Positions 1 through 37,016 of a DNA stretch of 64,000 bases are shown piece by piece. The notes under the pieces are model-generated. The model was not told the DNA's origin. It searched no databases and worked only from the letters and a program-made list of their open reading frames with translations. Within the stretch, counting starts at the first letter, position 1; each line of letters starts with the position of its first letter. The stretch comes from Iocasia fonsfrigidae (lineage in GTDB: Bacteria > Bacillota > Halanaerobiia > Halanaerobiales > DTU029). The position numbers were made by a program, and so were the translations under genes. Location of the stretch: assembly GCF_017751145.1 (NCBI RefSeq), contig NZ_CP046640.1, positions 1,840,137 to 1,904,136 on the forward strand. Reading direction: 5' to 3'.

Positions 1-367
1 AAAATATAATAGAACTCTTCCAGTAAAAGAACTAATGAGGAAGTTAAACAGAAAACTAACAGGAACATACAACTATTATGCAGTATCAGATAACAGCAAA
101 AGTATTGATAGCCTGTATGATGAGGTTCAAAAGCTAGTTTATAAATGGTTAAACAGACGCAGTCAAAAGAAAAGCTTTGACTGGGAGAAGTTCGAAATAT
201 TCTTGGAGAAATATCCTATTGTCAAGCCAAGAATAAAAGTAAATTTATATAGATTAGGTGCTGGTGCTAGTTATGTTAGGTGAATAATCGAGTGAAGAGC
301 CGTATGCCTAAATAGGGCACGTACGGTTCTGTGAGGAGTTGGGGTTGTAAAGCCCCGCTTACTCGAC
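1..367 (+). mobile_element. Group II intron copy 1, 3' part (cut by window edge)
   Basis: This stretch matches 3013-3379 base for base as far as I can read, so it is the 3' end of a second copy of the complete intron at 1501-3379. It holds the end of the intron-encoded protein, the domain V hairpin (about 297-329, GAGCCGTATG pairing with CACGTACGGTTC) and a domain VI-like stem, and ends ...CGAC at 367, giving the expected terminal AY. The two copies stop matching exactly there. The 5' part lies outside the window, so it is unknown whether this copy is complete. Confidence 0.9.
2..283 (+). CDS. ltrA: Group II intron reverse transcriptase/maturase, C-terminal part (partial)
   Basis: This is the last 93 codons of an intron-encoded protein, identical to residues 339-431 of the full protein at 2000-3295. 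It covers the maturase/thumb region and the basic C-terminus (WLNRRSQKKSFDWEKF), with no HNH endonuclease domain following. The start is outside the window, so this is partial because of the window edge and not because of a visible mutation. The stop is at 281-283, just before intron domain V. Confidence 0.85.
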   Translation, partial: KYNRTLPVKELMRKLNRKLTGTYNYYAVSDNSKSIDSLYDEVQKLVYKWLNRRSQKKSFDWEKFEIFLEKYPIVKPRIKVNLYRLGAGASYVR

Positions 368-613
368 CACTAAGATTCATTAACTTCTTAAATCCCTGGT
401 ACGTTATCTGAAAGATGAGGCTAGTATGGTTAATTAAGAATGTAAATGATTTTTGAAAGAGGTGAATGATCATGATTAACAAACGAATTAACTACTCGGT
501 GCAGTTAATATAATCTGGTAGCAAATTGTACCGGTAGTTTTGAATTTGTTATCAGTTAACTGTACTGCTTTTCATATTAATATTTATCAAAAAAAAATGA
601 AAAGGGGTAAAGA
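368..613. other. 3' flank of intron copy 1, no gene seen
   Basis: There is no convincing gene. The first 39 bases resemble the 3' flank of the second intron (3380-3418) at about 32 of 39 positions, including a shared CCTGGTACGTTA. Further on, CAGTTAA (near 501) and TTAACTG (near 555) form spaced inverted arms enclosing CAAATT/AATTTG arms, a possible stem-loop. A ribosome binding site AAAAGGGG lies just before the methyltransferase start at 614. Confidence 0.5.
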
Positions 614-1372
614 ATGAATTTAGAAAAATTAAAAGAGAATTGGAAAAGAGAAGAACAGTATTCGTTTAAAGGTTGGGATTTTTTCCATATAGAAAAAAGA
701 TGGGAACATGAGCAAATTCCCTGGGATTATAAAGATATTCTCCTGAGATATATTAAGTCATCAGATAAATTATTAGATATGGGTACAGGTGGCGGGGAGT
801 TTTTATTGACTCTAAACCATCCATATAAATTTACAAGTGTGACAGAAGCTTATCCGCCTAATGTAGAGATGTGTAAAAACAAATTATCTCCGTTAGGAAT
901 TGAAGTAAGACAGGTTTTTGATGATAGTGATATTCCTTATGAAACTAATAGCTTTGATATTGTTATTAACAGACATGAGGCATTTAGTGTAGATGAGATA
1001 AGTCGTATATTGAAAAGCGGTGGATATTTTATTACACAACAAGTTGGTGGGAAGAATAATAATGACTTATCAGAAAAATTAATTGATGGATTTAAACCAC
1101 TTTTTCCAAAACATGATCTGAAAAATAATATTAAATTATTACTGAAAAATGGATTTAAAATAATACTATCAGACGAGACATTTCCTAAGATAAAATTTTA
1201 TGATATTGGGGCACTGGTATATTTTTCAAAAGTAATAAAATGGGAATTTCCTGATTTCTCTGTAGATTCTTGTTTTAAAAATTTATGTAAATTGAAAAAA
1301 GAATTAAAAGAAAAAGGATATATATCAGGGACAAGTCACCGTTTTATAATAGTTGCACGAAGTCAAAAATAA
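614..1372 (+). CDS. Class I SAM-dependent methyltransferase
   Basis: The 252-residue protein has the class I methyltransferase motif I, LLDMGTGGGEF, at about residues 54-64, and a motif IV-like FDIVINRHEAF around 115. This is the methyltransferase 11/25 type of Rossmann fold, which moves a methyl group from SAM to an acceptor that the sequence does not reveal. It is cytosolic, with no signal peptide or membrane helix. The ATG at 614 follows AAAAGGGGTAAAG at good spacing. The gene sits alone between two copies of one group II intron and is very AT-rich, which suggests horizontally acquired cargo. Similar stand-alone enzymes act on small molecules or antibiotics, but nothing here fixes the substrate. 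Confidence 0.75.
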   Translation: MNLEKLKENWKREEQYSFKGWDFFHIEKRWEHEQIPWDYKDILLRYIKSSDKLLDMGTGGGEFLLTLNHPYKFTSVTEAYPPNVEMCKNKLSPLGIEVRQVFDDSDIPYETNSFDIVINRHEAFSVDEISRILKSGGYFITQQVGGKNNNDLSEKLIDGFKPLFPKHDLKNNIKLLLKNGFKIILSDETFPKIKFYDIGALVYFSKVIKWEFPDFSVDSCFKNLCKLKKELKEKGYISGTSHRFIIVARSQK

Positions 1373-1500
1373 AATAAAAATATTGATCAGGGTGATGGTT
1401 GATGTGTCCTACGTGGGGGCCTCATCCATCAGATAACAGCAAGGTTTACGATTTCGCTCCTGTCGTCGCTTCATCCAAATTTATTCGCCAAGCGCAGTCG
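1373..1500. other. 5' flank (exon) of intron copy 2
   Basis: This noncoding stretch is more GC-rich than its surroundings. TGATGG (about 1393) and CCATCA (about 1426) can pair into a hairpin. The last bases, GCGCAGTCG, are the 5' exon, where the intron's EBS1 would pair. The hairpin has no T-run, so I do not call it a terminator. Confidence 0.45.
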
Positions 1501-1999
1501 GTGCGCCAAGAAAAGAGCATATCATATAGTAGGTGGGATTCCTACTGAGGAAGGTTTAGCAAACCACTCATAGCGAGTTTTGGACATTTAATGGGTAACC
1601 ATAGATGTTAAGCGTAAACAGTTAGGTAGTAGGCGGTAAGCATTTAGCTGAAGGGATTGAGCCTCGAAATCTTGGAGATTGGGAAAGGCCGATGCTGTCG
1701 ACTGAGCAGAAGGCAACATTATAGTATTCGATAAGCGAGAATACAATAACACCCCGGGGTCGGAGACCTCCGCATGCTATACATAGATATGATATTGTTA
1801 ACTTGGGAGGCCCTGTAATTTCTACGCAGAGAGATAGGATGTAACCAAGCGATAACAAAGTAAGGACATCTAATATTACAGGGAGTCGGATAATCGCATA
1901 GTACCGAGGAAGCAGAGTAATGCCTGTGGATGGGAAGGCGATTACACAAGATTAATCTTAAAAGGGAAACATATTCTATACACAGAGATAGGTGAAAAT

Positions 2000-3295
2000 G
2001 TGGAAACGAAACTTGCAAGAATAGCTGAAGTAGCTAGAAATAGACCTAATGAAAGATTTACATCACTAATACATCTAATTAATTATGAATTGATAGTCAA
2101 ATGTCATCATGAACTAGCTGGAAACAAAGCAGCTGGAGTAGATGAAGTAACAAAAGCGGAGTATGGAAAGAATCTTCCAGGGAATGTTAAGAGCTTAATA
2201 GCTAGAATGAAAAGATGGGCATATAGGCCATTACCTGCGAAAAGGGTATATATTCCAAAAGAAAATGGGAAGAAGAGACCGCTAGGGATTCCAGCATACG
2301 AAGACAAACTAGTTCAAAAGGCACTATCAAAGATTCTAAATGCGATATATGAAGAAGACTTTCTTGAATGTTCATTTGGTTTTCGTCCAGGAAGAAACTG
2401 TCATGATGCCTTGAGAATATTAGGAAGAATAGTTAACAGAGATGATATTAACTATGTAGTTGATACAGATATTAAAGAATTCTTTGATAATGTAGACCAC
2501 GGGTGGATGATGAAATTCATTGACCATCGAATTAAAGATCCTAATATACAACGACTCATATCGAGACTTCTTCGAGCTGGAGTCATGGAGGCAGGAATAA
2601 AATATGACACTCCACAAGGAACACCGCAAGGTGGAGTCTGTTCTCCAATTATGGCGAATTTATATCTACATCATGTTGTTGACCTATGGTTTAATAAAAC
2701 AATGCGTAAAGAGTTAAAGGGTAAAGCTTACATGGTGAGATACGCAGATGATATAATATTTTGCCTACAGTATAAAGAAGATGTAAAATACTTCTATAAA
2801 GCAATGAAAGAAAGAATATCCAAATTCGGTTTAGAGTTATCAGAAGAGAAAACTAAGATAGTAAATGTATCTGCTGATGATGACAATGACACATTTGATT
2901 TTCTTGGATTTACCCATTATATGGGTAAATGTAAGGATGGAATCAAACGACTAAAGAGAAAGACAAGTAATAAGCGACATCATCGTAGTATAATGAGATG
3001 TAAATCCTGGCTAAAATATAATAGAACTCTTCCAGTAAAAGAACTAATGAGGAAGTTAAACAGAAAACTAACAGGAACATACAACTATTATGCAGTATCA
3101 GATAACAGCAAAAGTATTGATAGCCTGTATGATGAGGTTCAAAAGCTAGTTTATAAATGGTTAAACAGACGCAGTCAAAAGAAAAGCTTTGACTGGGAGA
3201 AGTTCGAAATATTCTTGGAGAAATATCCTATTGTCAAGCCAAGAATAAAAGTAAATTTATATAGATTAGGTGCTGGTGCTAGTTATGTTAGGTGA
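2000..3295 (+). CDS. ltrA: Group II intron-encoded reverse transcriptase/maturase
   Basis: The 431-residue protein promotes splicing of its host intron and copies it into DNA after reverse splicing. Reverse transcriptase blocks are clear: KKRPLGIPAYEDKLVQ at 91-106, FGFRPGRNCHDAL at 126-138, DTDIKEFFDNVDH at 155-167, TPQGTPQGG at 204-212, and catalytic YADD at 248-251. The maturase (thumb) region and a basic tail ending RIKVNLYRLGAG follow. There is no HNH domain, which agrees with the length. The start is GTG at 2000 after AGATAGGTGAAAAT. The frame is intact. The intron class is not assigned here because telling the endonuclease-lacking classes apart needs a tree. Confidence 0.93.
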   Translation: METKLARIAEVARNRPNERFTSLIHLINYELIVKCHHELAGNKAAGVDEVTKAEYGKNLPGNVKSLIARMKRWAYRPLPAKRVYIPKENGKKRPLGIPAYEDKLVQKALSKILNAIYEEDFLECSFGFRPGRNCHDALRILGRIVNRDDINYVVDTDIKEFFDNVDHGWMMKFIDHRIKDPNIQRLISRLLRAGVMEAGIKYDTPQGTPQGGVCSPIMANLYLHHVVDLWFNKTMRKELKGKAYMVRYADDIIFCLQYKEDVKYFYKAMKERISKFGLELSEEKTKIVNVSADDDNDTFDFLGFTHYMGKCKDGIKRLKRKTSNKRHHRSIMRCKSWLKYNRTLPVKELMRKLNRKLTGTYNYYAVSDNSKSIDSLYDEVQKLVYKWLNRRSQKKSFDWEKFEIFLEKYPIVKPRIKVNLYRLGAGASYVR

Positions 3296-3308
3296 ATAAT
3301 CGAGTGAA

Positions 3309-3341
3309 GAGCCGTATGCCTAAATAGGGCACGTACGGTTC
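3309..3341 (+). ncRNA. Group II intron domain V hairpin
   Basis: The catalytic domain V begins GAGCCGTATG and ends CACGTACGGTTC, forming the typical 33-34 nt hairpin with bulge. The same hairpin is at 297-329 in copy 1. Domain VI follows at about 3342-3376 and would hold the branch adenosine. Confidence 0.85.
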
Positions 3342-3475
3342 TGTGAGGAGTTGGGGTTGTAAAGCCCCGCTTACTCGACACCTAAGATTGAGAAACTTCG
3401 TAAATGCCTGGTACGTTAAGCAACATATCTGCTATTCTGAAATATCTTAATCATATTATATAAGGAGATGATAGC

Positions 3476-9618: not shown

Positions 9619-9691
9619 GTTACAAATGTTTCTCTTTTTCTTTGTTTAGTTTAAGGATTAGGGTTTGCAGGATTGTCGATAATTTTGAAGT

Positions 9692-9880
9692 CCAACAAAT
9701 ATATTTACTTCCCTTGTCGTACACTAAGGAGTCCTGCCTTCGTTTACTGTCGAGAAATTGTCTTTCGGCTCACTGACTCTTCTTTTTATTACGCATGGTC
9801 GAGTCAGTATTAGGCCATCGAGGCCAAGTTCCATGCCTCCAGATAATTTCTAGTGTCGTCCAGTAAATATATTTGTCTGG
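9692..9880 (+). repeat. Structured repeat family A, copy 1 (with inserted hairpins)
   Basis: Outer arms ACAAATATATTTACT and AGTAAATATATTTGT, and inner arms AGAAATTGTCT (9752-9762) and AGATAATTTCT (9841-9851; one G-U pair), enclose the family motifs CTTGTCGT, GTCCTGCCT, TTACTGTCG and GTCGTCC. Compared with the other copies, about 57 bases are inserted in the apical loop. The insert has its own arms, ACTGACTC and GAGTCAGT, plus a GGCC-ATCGA-GGCC hairpin. A trailing element, GTTGATTAAG...GCACTTTGTTCT, follows at 9941-9972. The copy fills the gap between two + strand genes; no gene is seen in 9619-10127. Confidence 0.85.
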
Positions 9881-10020
9881 TTTATGATATTCTAAATAAC
9901 TTTGAGTAATAAATATTTTAAAATAAAGAAATTATTTTTTGTTGATTAAGTGGATGGTGAAGCACTTTGTTCTCTGAAAGAATTCGAGCAAATAGTGGAG
10001 TGGAGGAAAGGGAGTAATAT

Positions 10021-18758: not shown

Positions 18759-18839
18759 TTATTAATAAAGTTTGGAAACAAAGTTTTTCATTAGTTAAAA
18801 GAAATTATGTGTCTTTAAAATTATGGATAACTTTAAAGA

Positions 18840-18968
18840 CCGACAAATATATTTACTTTCCTTGTCGTGTGCTATGGTGTCCTACCTCCGCTTACTGTCG
18901 AGAAATTATCCTCCGGCGTCCTGCCTGCGGATAATTTCTAGAGTCGTCCAGTAAATATATTTGTCTGG
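18840..18968 (+). repeat. Structured repeat family A, copy 2 (type copy)
   Basis: Outer arms ACAAATATATTTACT (18843-18857) and AGTAAATATATTTGT (18950-18964) pair perfectly, as do inner arms AGAAATTATCC (18901-18911) and GGATAATTTCT (18929-18939). Loops carry CTTGTCGT, GTGTCCTACCTCCG, TTACTGTCG, CCGGCGTCCTGCCT and AGAGTCGTCC. A second hairpin, AAAGTGGTTT (18997-19006) with AAACCACTTT (19045-19054), follows and is conserved in copies 1 and 4. No gene is visible between 18969 and 19395 apart from this. Confidence 0.9.
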
Positions 18969-19395
18969 TTTATGATAATTAGTTAACTTTGTGCAAAAAG
19001 TGGTTTTAAGAATAAATATAATTGTTGATTAAGTTTGGATCGCCAAACCACTTTGTTCTACTATCCTTGATTTTACTTAAATAAAATTGCTTGTGAGAAT
19101 TGAGGGAGATATGGCCTTCTCCTGGTTTTTAAGTTTTATATTATAGGTCTATACTATGAGAAATTCAAAATATGTAATTATCTTTATCTTTATCATTTGC
19201 TAAAAATTAAAGGGGGGGAGTTCAAATTTAGTAATATAGCGGCAAATGTAAAGATATTATAGACTGCTTTTATCTATGGGCTTAAAGGTAATTTTAAGAT
19301 TAAGGAAATAAAGAGACTTATTCTTACTTATCTGTTAAGCAAAGATAAATCAGTCAATATATTAAAACTAGAAACAGAAAACGAGGAGGATCTAC

Positions 19396-21429: not shown

Positions 21430-22227
21430 ATGTTATCTTATTATTCAGATAAAAACATTGATATTTTTGAAATAAAAAAATGTCTTAATGTTATGCAATC
21501 GGAAAAAGCGCATTTTCATCATGAATTATCTATTGCCTTGATTGATAGAGGAGGTACTTCAGTAAAATTTGAGAATAAGACTTATAATTTCACTGCAAAA
21601 GATTTAATAATCTTCCCCCCTGGATTGGTTCACTGTTGTAACCCTTATAGTTTAGAAAACTGGGGATTTACAATGGTTTATCTTGATTATGGCTGGTTTA
21701 AGGGTATTTTCAAACTGGAATTTAAGGAAAATGAGGTGTTTAGTTATAAGTTGAGTAGGGGTGAATATTTGAGACTGAAAAACAATCTCTTGTTTTTAGA
21801 AAAGAGGGTTGATTATATAAGTAAGAAAAAGTGTTTAATAAGAATATTGGAAAAATATCTAATTCAAAATATGAGAAAATTTAATGATATTAGAATTGAT
21901 TTATTAGAGAAAGAGAGGATTAAAAGGGTAAGGGAATATATTGAGGACAATATTAACCAGAAAGTAACCTTAAATGAATTATCGAATTTTTCCGGTATAA
22001 GTAAATATCATTTAATGAGAACATTTAAAAAAATGTATAAGGTATCACCACTTACTTATCAGAGGAATCTAAGGTTTAATCTTGCTAAAAAAGGGCTTAA
22101 GGAGGGTGGGGATATTTCAAAAATTGCGGTTAGTTTAGGGTATTATGACCAGAGTCATTTTACTAATGAGTTTAAAAAATTTTCAGGGACGACTCCAGAT
22201 GATTATAGAAAGAATTTGTGTATATAA
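21430..22227 (+). CDS. AraC-family transcriptional regulator with cupin sensor domain
   Basis: In this 265-residue protein, residues 1-140 form an AraC-binding (cupin) domain (FHHELSIALIDRGGTSVKFE, then IIFPPGLVHCCNP). Residues 165-262 form the double helix-turn-helix: LNELSNFSGISKYHLMRTFK and ISKIAVSLGYYDQSHFTNEF, then FKKFSGTTPDDYR. The effector is unknown; AraC proteins with this cupin often sense small molecules and control the next gene, here an EamA exporter in the same direction. The start ATG 21430 follows AGGTAGGTGAAG. Confidence 0.88.
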   Translation: MLSYYSDKNIDIFEIKKCLNVMQSEKAHFHHELSIALIDRGGTSVKFENKTYNFTAKDLIIFPPGLVHCCNPYSLENWGFTMVYLDYGWFKGIFKLEFKENEVFSYKLSRGEYLRLKNNLLFLEKRVDYISKKKCLIRILEKYLIQNMRKFNDIRIDLLEKERIKRVREYIEDNINQKVTLNELSNFSGISKYHLMRTFKKMYKVSPLTYQRNLRFNLAKKGLKEGGDISKIAVSLGYYDQSHFTNEFKKFSGTTPDDYRKNLCI

Positions 22228-22260
22228 GTAGCACTTAAATATAGCACTTTTCTGTTCCAG

Positions 22261-22383
22261 CCAATTATATTAATTCCGCTTGTCGTTCGTTACGGCGTCC
22301 TGCCTCCACTCACTGTCACATATTTTTCACTTCGGCATCCTGCCTACGTGAAAAATATAGAGTCGCTCCATTAATATAATTGG
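22261..22383 (+). repeat. Structured repeat family A, copy 3 (divergent arms, conserved loops)
   Basis: Outer arms CCAATTATATTAAT (22261-22274) and ATTAATATAATTGG (22370-22383), and inner arms ATATTTTTCAC (22320-22330) and GTGAAAAATAT (22348-22358), are perfect yet differ in sequence from copies 1, 2 and 4. The loops keep GCTTGTCGT, GGCGTCCTGCCTCC, CACTGTC, TTCGGCATCCTGCCT and AGAGTCGCTCC. Changing both arms while keeping the pairing is evidence for selected structure. This copy lacks the trailing AAAGTGG/CCACTTT hairpin. Confidence 0.88.
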
Positions 22384-22494
22384 CTTACACAAAGCATAGT
22401 GTGAATAAATTAAATGAAAATTTTTATAGCAAGTTTTTACAATACTATTTCTTTTCAAGGCCATATAATGAACAAAAAACAGGGAGTGAACGAG

Positions 22495-36509: not shown

Positions 36510-36698
36510 AGCCTCCTTTATGATGATTTTTTCTTTATTATACCTAGTTTTTTATATTTGATACTTGTAAAAATAAAATTAACTATTTACTATAAATCAT
36601 AATCTTTTGGATTACGATTTTTTTAAAATCTGGCTAGCAGAGACATTTTGTTCAGGAAATTATGCAATTTTGAAATTGTTGATAACTTTAAAGACCGC

Positions 36699-36819
36699 CC
36701 AATATATTTACTTACCTTGTCGTGCACTATGGCGTCCTGCCTTCGTTTACTGTCGAGAAATTGTCTTCCGGCGTCCATGCCTCCAGCCAATTTCTAGAGT
36801 CGTCCAGTAAATATATTGG
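36699..36819 (+). repeat. Structured repeat family A, copy 4
   Basis: Outer arms CCAATATATTTACT (36699-36712) and AGTAAATATATTGG (36806-36819), and inner arms AGAAATTG (36756-36763) and CAATTTCT (36788-36795), are perfect. Loops carry CCTTGTCGTGCACTATGGC, GTCCTGCCTTCG, TTACTGTCG, CCGGCGTCC and AGAGTCGTCC. Upstream GATAACTTTAAAGACCG matches copy 2. Downstream AAAAGTGGTTC and GAAGCCATTTTGTT (36853-36914) are the counterpart of the trailing hairpin. An open frame at 36607-36810 is an artefact of the repeat. Otherwise the 36510-37016 gap looks empty. Confidence 0.9.
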
Positions 36820-37016
36820 TCTGGTTTATAATAAGTAGTTATTTTTGAGTGAAAAGTGGTTCTAAGAAAAAATTAATAATTAGTAACTAAATCTGGCTGG
36901 CGAAGCCATTTTGTTTTTATACAATAGACGTTATTACAATTTTTTTAATTTGTTTTTAATCTAACCTTGTTATAATCTCTATAAAGTTATTTATGTATAT
37001 TCAAGGGGGGATGGTC

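Follow-up and report, generated by a model that had tools for sequence, protein, structure and literature searches.

The structured repeats of this region, which carry no gene, are probably small non-autonomous mobile DNA elements built around a conserved folded core, and their largest group, subfamily A, would have spread in trans through an IS91-type Y2 transposase. Four copies lie in the window (the whole 64,000-nucleotide stretch analysed, positions 1,840,137–1,904,136 of the 3,926,493-bp chromosome of Iocasia fonsfrigidae). A covariance-model search, suggested in the earlier note, gave 94 matches in the genome, which comprise subfamilies A (73 copies), B (13) and C (8). BLAST with copy 2 finds 42 places in the genome, a few of them partial, and a pattern scan returns 37 matches against 1 for the reversed control pattern; together, these three counts exclude a chance origin of the repeats.

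A three-way junction kept by paired changes

All four copies were recovered at the positions and on the strand first described, and they align end to end. Copies 1, 2 and 4 belong to subfamily A and copy 3 to subfamily B, in which stems and flanks differ from those of A. The cores, and the units that carry them, are listed below in window coordinates.

9645..9972, + strand: copy 1, whole subfamily A unit, from a decayed left end to the right end ...CACTTTGTTC (sequence, flank alignment)
9692..9880, + strand: copy 1 core (P1-P2-P3-P1'), with insert D in the P3 loop (genome 1849827-1850017, covariance model)
9769..9832, + strand: insert D of copy 1, ~60 nt, in the GGC/GTCC loop of P3 (genome 1849906-1849968)
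18800..19058, + strand: copy 2, whole subfamily A unit, left end AGAAATTATG...TATGGATAACTTT, right end ...CACTTTGTTC (sequence, flank alignment)
18840..18968, + strand: copy 2 core, three-way junction (genome 1858975-1859105)
22221..22428, + strand: copy 3, subfamily B unit, bounds TATATAAGT...TTTTTATA (consensus right end ACTTATATA)
22261..22383, + strand: copy 3 core, subfamily B, three-way junction (genome 1862393-1862524)
36627..36653, + strand: remnant of another IS91-type right end (AAATCTGGCTAGCAGAGACATTTTGTTC) directly 5' of copy 4, a tandem remnant (read from the sequence)
36654..36916, + strand: copy 4, whole subfamily A unit, left end AGGAAATTATGC..., right end ...GGCGAAGCCATTTTGTTT (sequence, flank alignment)
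36699..36819, + strand: copy 4 core, three-way junction (genome 1876830-1876961)

The core of about 125 nt was originally described as two nested stems, but it forms a three-way junction: between the outer AT-rich stem P1 (14–21 bp) and the longer inner hairpin P3 there is a second, small hairpin, P2 (GGYGTCCTRCC), and the junction carries the motifs CTTGTCG, CTGTCG and AGAGTCG. All four copies are more stably folded than dinucleotide shuffles of the same sequence (z = -7.4, -7.9, -3.2 and -5.0). The loop motifs reported as constant are so in part. CTTGTCGT and ACTGTC are present in all four copies, whereas GTCCTGCCT occupies the first hairpin of copies 1, 3 and 4 only; copy 2 has GTCCTACCT at this place and carries GTCCTGCCT in its second hairpin. 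AGAGTCG does occur in three copies (2, 3 and 4), and copy 1 reads AGTGTCG.

Across 44 diverse sequences, 94% of cells pair and both sides change in 36 of the 37 pairs. The covariation score for these sequences, 0.812 against 0.223 for shuffled and at most 0.149 for slid partners, comes from an alignment that was fitted to the covariance model and is hence tilted towards structure, but its margin over the controls is large. The proposal of a selected structure, with arms that vary yet stay complementary, is thereby strongly supported. Junction and loop letters are conserved while the stems vary.

Copy 1 is longer than the others because of the ~60-nt insert D in its P3 loop. The same insert occurs in P3 or P2 loops of ~17 cores genome-wide, and another, insert E (~50 nt), adjoins P2 in many cores and has copies in other places as well. 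Insert E is a hairpin repeat of ~50 bp that starts and ends with GGTTGCACC. Outside cores it is found at loci L168, L363, L364 and L366-L371, in tandem at 344,143 and 3,429,542 (at the latter as three copies adjoining tRNA genes), and within another palindromic repeat, the start of which reads CTGTTCGAAAAG. At one locus the nesting reaches three levels, with E inside D inside an A core (L164:1061-1173, genome 906,160-906,272). Hairpin elements thus serve as sites for other, small hairpin elements.

The same covariance model has matches in 13 of the 60 relatives sampled, with 48 in G048 alone, and in four genomes farther off in the phylum (G097, G138, G273 and G324), so that the distribution across the phylum is patchy. 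A degenerate-pattern scan of genome contigs gave mostly chance matches, among which only a Fuchsiella record (L302) is plausible. In Rfam, the window matches only group II introns, and a permissive search with copy 2 returned chance-level matches. As far as the searches reached, the statement that no named family fits holds for the core, but not for the carrier of subfamily A, which belongs to the IS91 family. The intron matches fall within window positions 295-3379: two Intron_gpII matches of identical score (295-367 and 3307-3379) enclose a 431-aa open reading frame at 2000-3295, and a domain D1-D4 match lies at 1536-1769, which points to an intron and one further intron end.

An IS91-type carrier for subfamily A

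Alignment of the flanks places the majority of A cores in a unit of ~270 bp. The left end of this unit, GGAAAYTATG...TTGTGGATAACTT, and its right end, GGGTGGCGNAGCCATTTTGTTC, are found again at the borders of a 1.6-kb element that codes for a 441-aa transposase with Y2_Tnp and Zn_Tnp_IS91 domains (PF04986, 1.6e-35; PF14319, 2.6e-23). Subfamily C, which has an inverted core inside the same kind of element, either alongside A or alone, has its ends in common with this autonomous element as well (left end of A and C, GGAAAYTATG...TGTGGATAACTT; right end, GGGTGGCGNAGCCATTTTGTTC). Eight close copies of the intact transposase element, with the right end ...CATTTTGTTC, are present in the genome. Because these ends are common to them and to an intact IS91-family element, the subfamily A units, including copies 1, 2 and 4, are by sequence non-autonomous IS91-family elements.

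A units and transposase elements stand head to tail in tandem arrays; four near-identical A units have ~389 bp in common and differ in the sequence outside; and locus L004 is a deletion derivative that consists of a left end, core A, a 3' fragment of the transposase gene and a right end. The tetranucleotide GTTC follows or ends the right end in 22 of ~33 recognisable ends and precedes the left end mainly in tandem arrays; GTTC/GAAC is the target of IS91 (PMC7758954). Some A copies are without a recognisable left or right end. One of the two readings offered in the earlier note was a palindromic mobile element whose moving partner lies outside the window. This reading is supported by the A ends, which are those of an IS91-family element elsewhere in the chromosome, and also by core-bearing mobile units in other genomes, which show target duplications in G324 and flanking direct repeats in G039.

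The A unit has TAACTTTG on both sides, inside the IS91 ends. Such repeats are compatible with a past insertion of the unit into an IS91 element, but they record one event at most and are no proof of it. We propose that an IS91-family element acquired the core close to its left end, and the direct repeats make it probable that the core arrived as an inserting unit. The product without transposase would have consisted of a left end, core A and/or inverted core C, and the right end ...CATTTTGTTC. An IS91-type Y2 transposase, acting in trans, would then have copied this element to dozens of intergenic sites, presumably by rolling-circle transposition as modelled for IS91 (PMC4778049); we infer transposition of the A units, including the action in trans, from the ends and the enzyme. 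The fold, and not the sequence of its arms, would matter for this spread, since copies that multiply keep the fold through paired changes.

Three further observations concern the carrier. The IS91-type left end (for example L166:2172, 2441) includes TGTGGATAA, which matches the DnaA box TTATCCACA at every position and accounts for dozens of extra DnaA-box-like sites in the genome; as a general neighbour of the core, however, such a sequence was rejected (4/65 in relatives versus ~2% of background windows). Two more Y2_Tnp (IS91-type) genes, of another lineage, lie on the lagging strand (L235; genome 1,594,913 and 1,607,085) and have no link to cores as far as seen. A search among viruses for relatives of the IS91 transposase found none.

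Orientation, and what it says of the alternatives

With the direction of replication set by dnaA at base 397 and by the flip in GC skew at 2.075-2.10 Mb, 92 of the 94 elements in the source genome are co-oriented with replication; copies in tandem arrays are not independent of one another, but the excess is far larger than such an effect. The two exceptions are an element in the terminus zone (2,097,110) and a C element (778,615), and subfamily B is equally co-oriented (13/13). At the two sites where both neighbouring genes are on the lagging strand, the element follows replication and not the genes. Measured against local GC skew, orientation is uniform in the source genome (21/21 of the copies tested) and fully reversed in G039 (0/9), and it is random in G048 (13/29), G046 (4/7) and G324 (5/11). 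Orientation that varies in this way follows genome and carrier and not the fold; it points to an effect of how the elements insert and speaks against an RNA that acts in cis. The other reading in the earlier note, a noncoding RNA family, consequently finds no support in its cis-acting form, for which Rfam likewise holds no match.

Enzymes of IS200/IS605 and REP elements act on hairpins of the lagging-strand template, and IS200/IS605 elements insert there (PMC6006769). By analogy, insertion into the single-stranded template at the fork may have caused the bias seen here. That the bias instead reflects selection on reading direction, for example through conflicts between transcription and replication, we consider unlikely. 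Most sites lie between co-directional leading-strand genes, where the directions of replication and transcription are hard to separate, and subfamily B shows the same bias with another carrier, both as such selection would have it. Yet the two sites with all-lagging-strand neighbours go with replication, and neither the random orientation of the core in G048, G324 and G046 nor its full reversal in G039 agrees with a preferred reading direction.

A trans-acting structured RNA gene on the complementary strand, merely multiplied by mobility, would be compatible with conserved junction and loop letters between variable stems. It is also favoured by the kinds of mismatch: on the strand as given, A.C exceeds G.T among non-Watson–Crick cells (53 versus 15 here, 41 versus 12 in relatives), and these A.C mismatches are G.T/G.U wobbles on the complementary strand. 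The excess hints at RNA from that strand but is suggestive only, because distinct column types within genomes give just 35 versus 18 (p = 0.03); total wobble, moreover, is only ~2%, which is low for RNA. Both hairpins, when taken from the complementary strand, follow the plan stem-GNA-NNN-A(N)GGAN-NNN-GNA-stem, which resembles tandem sheared G.A internal loops with CsrA-type ANGGA loops, and on this likeness rests a version in which the core is a decoy for CsrA. CsrA is above the cut-off in 14 of 16 core-bearing genomes, but it was not found in G138 and falls below the cut-off in G097, which has 8 core copies; CsrA is not universal among the bearers of the core, which weighs against the decoy version. 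Against any trans-acting RNA stand the random orientation to the surrounding strand in three genomes and a promoter search that yielded none that was clear, and we regard such a gene as improbable. A promoter or terminator function of the core was rejected too: sigma-70-like sites are barely above shuffles, and what looked like terminators proved to be the hairpin at the carrier's right end and not the core.

Mobilisation of the core by a Y1 transposase (RAYT/IS200-type), as a REP-like hairpin unit of single-stranded DNA with GTCG as guide tetranucleotide, is highly improbable. The core is intergenic, hairpin-rich and present in many copies, GTCG adjoins both P2 and P3, and IS200/IS605 and REP enzymes do use lagging-strand template hairpins. 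However, with ~125 nt and three helices the core differs from a single hairpin of 20-40 nt. The sole full Y1_Tnp gene of the genome, which is RAYT-like (L064:6603-7361, - strand), has no core beside it but a different flanking palindrome, GGGGGACGGTTC, unrelated to the cores, and was rejected as a partner. The units in G324, in addition, make target duplications, which Y1 enzymes are not known to do. An integron attC site was dismissed by eye on the alignments, which have no conserved RYYYAAC ... GTTRRRY boxes at the outer stem, the letters of which vary freely.

Other carriers and the significance of the core

Mobile DNA elements around a conserved core remain the preferred reading, but IS91 transposition is not the whole explanation. 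Subfamily B is bounded by TATATAAGT...ACTTATATA, which are not IS91-type ends, and neither in B nor in G048 or G046 did target duplications rise above the shuffled control, yet B is co-oriented as A is. Y2_Tnp is absent from 7 of the 9 other core-bearing genomes tested. In G324, the core sits inside a unit of ~190 bp, ATGRCTATCCCC...TATAGYC, with direct target duplications of 8-10 bp at 7/7 distinct sites (six exact, one with a single mismatch). One of these insertions lies inside an insertion sequence, which we take from its protein to be ISAs1-like and which then multiplied. In G039, direct repeats flank the units that have the bounds CAGGTTGTTGA...TCAACAAGCTC; in several copies these repeats are 20-25 bp long and terminator-like, and 4 of 10 copies have one offset in common (shuffled control, 1-2). 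At the G039 loci L118, L212, L213 and L216, the flanking repeats resemble rho-independent terminator hairpins, as if insertion had duplicated a terminator.

The same core in other genera and on other carriers makes it a module common to unrelated mobile elements. More tentatively, the core could be a folded module that depends on no particular carrier and works either as single-stranded DNA or as RNA from the complementary strand; mobile elements of at least three unrelated kinds would have taken it up across the phylum: rolling-circle IS91-type elements, a unit with target duplications of ~9 bp, and a unit bounded by duplicated terminator-like hairpins.

The A and C units are like the IS91 family (Y2 HUH rolling-circle elements) in their ends, right-end hairpin and capture of foreign sequence between the ends, and probably in their terminal GTTC; no target duplication was seen at them, which would also be as in IS91. 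They differ in having a folded core and no transposase, whereas the transposase element of this genome has no core, and the core itself is also found on carriers that lack IS91 ends and in genomes from which Y2_Tnp is absent. Non-autonomous Helitrons are the eukaryotic parallel. The repeats bcr1-bcr18 of the Bacillus cereus group are likewise intergenic, 100-400 bp long, of high copy number and MITE-like with features of mobility, some with conserved secondary structure and part of them transcribed; they are described as limited to that group, with a TTTAT repeat at the site (PMC6542083, PMC3446304). These descriptions set them apart from the core, which is found in many families of the phylum and on several carriers. 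REP/BIME sequences with RAYT enzymes are also intergenic palindromes of high copy number, sometimes in inverted pairs (A and C, too, face each other), but the core is larger, has three helices and no linked RAYT, and shows target duplications in G324. In mitochondria, double-hairpin elements and GC clusters are small hairpin elements that lie inside one another, a nesting like that of inserts D, E, F and G; here, in contrast, the setting is a bacterial chromosome, the core is larger and multi-branched, and the carriers have transposases.

Miniature transposons are usually viewed as stripped-down copies of a single parent. Here, one strongly conserved fold lies in units with different ends, target duplications and strand preferences and is hence conserved independently of any one transposase, which makes the purpose of such folds directly testable. 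The co-orientation of 92 of 94 elements is also an unusually clean record of strand-specific insertion tied to an IS91-type element, and it bears on how rolling-circle transposons meet the replication fork. The core may serve a protein or a step in the life of its carriers; if it is independent of them, it would be a transposon parasite or a device common to transposons, for example one that recruits a host factor.
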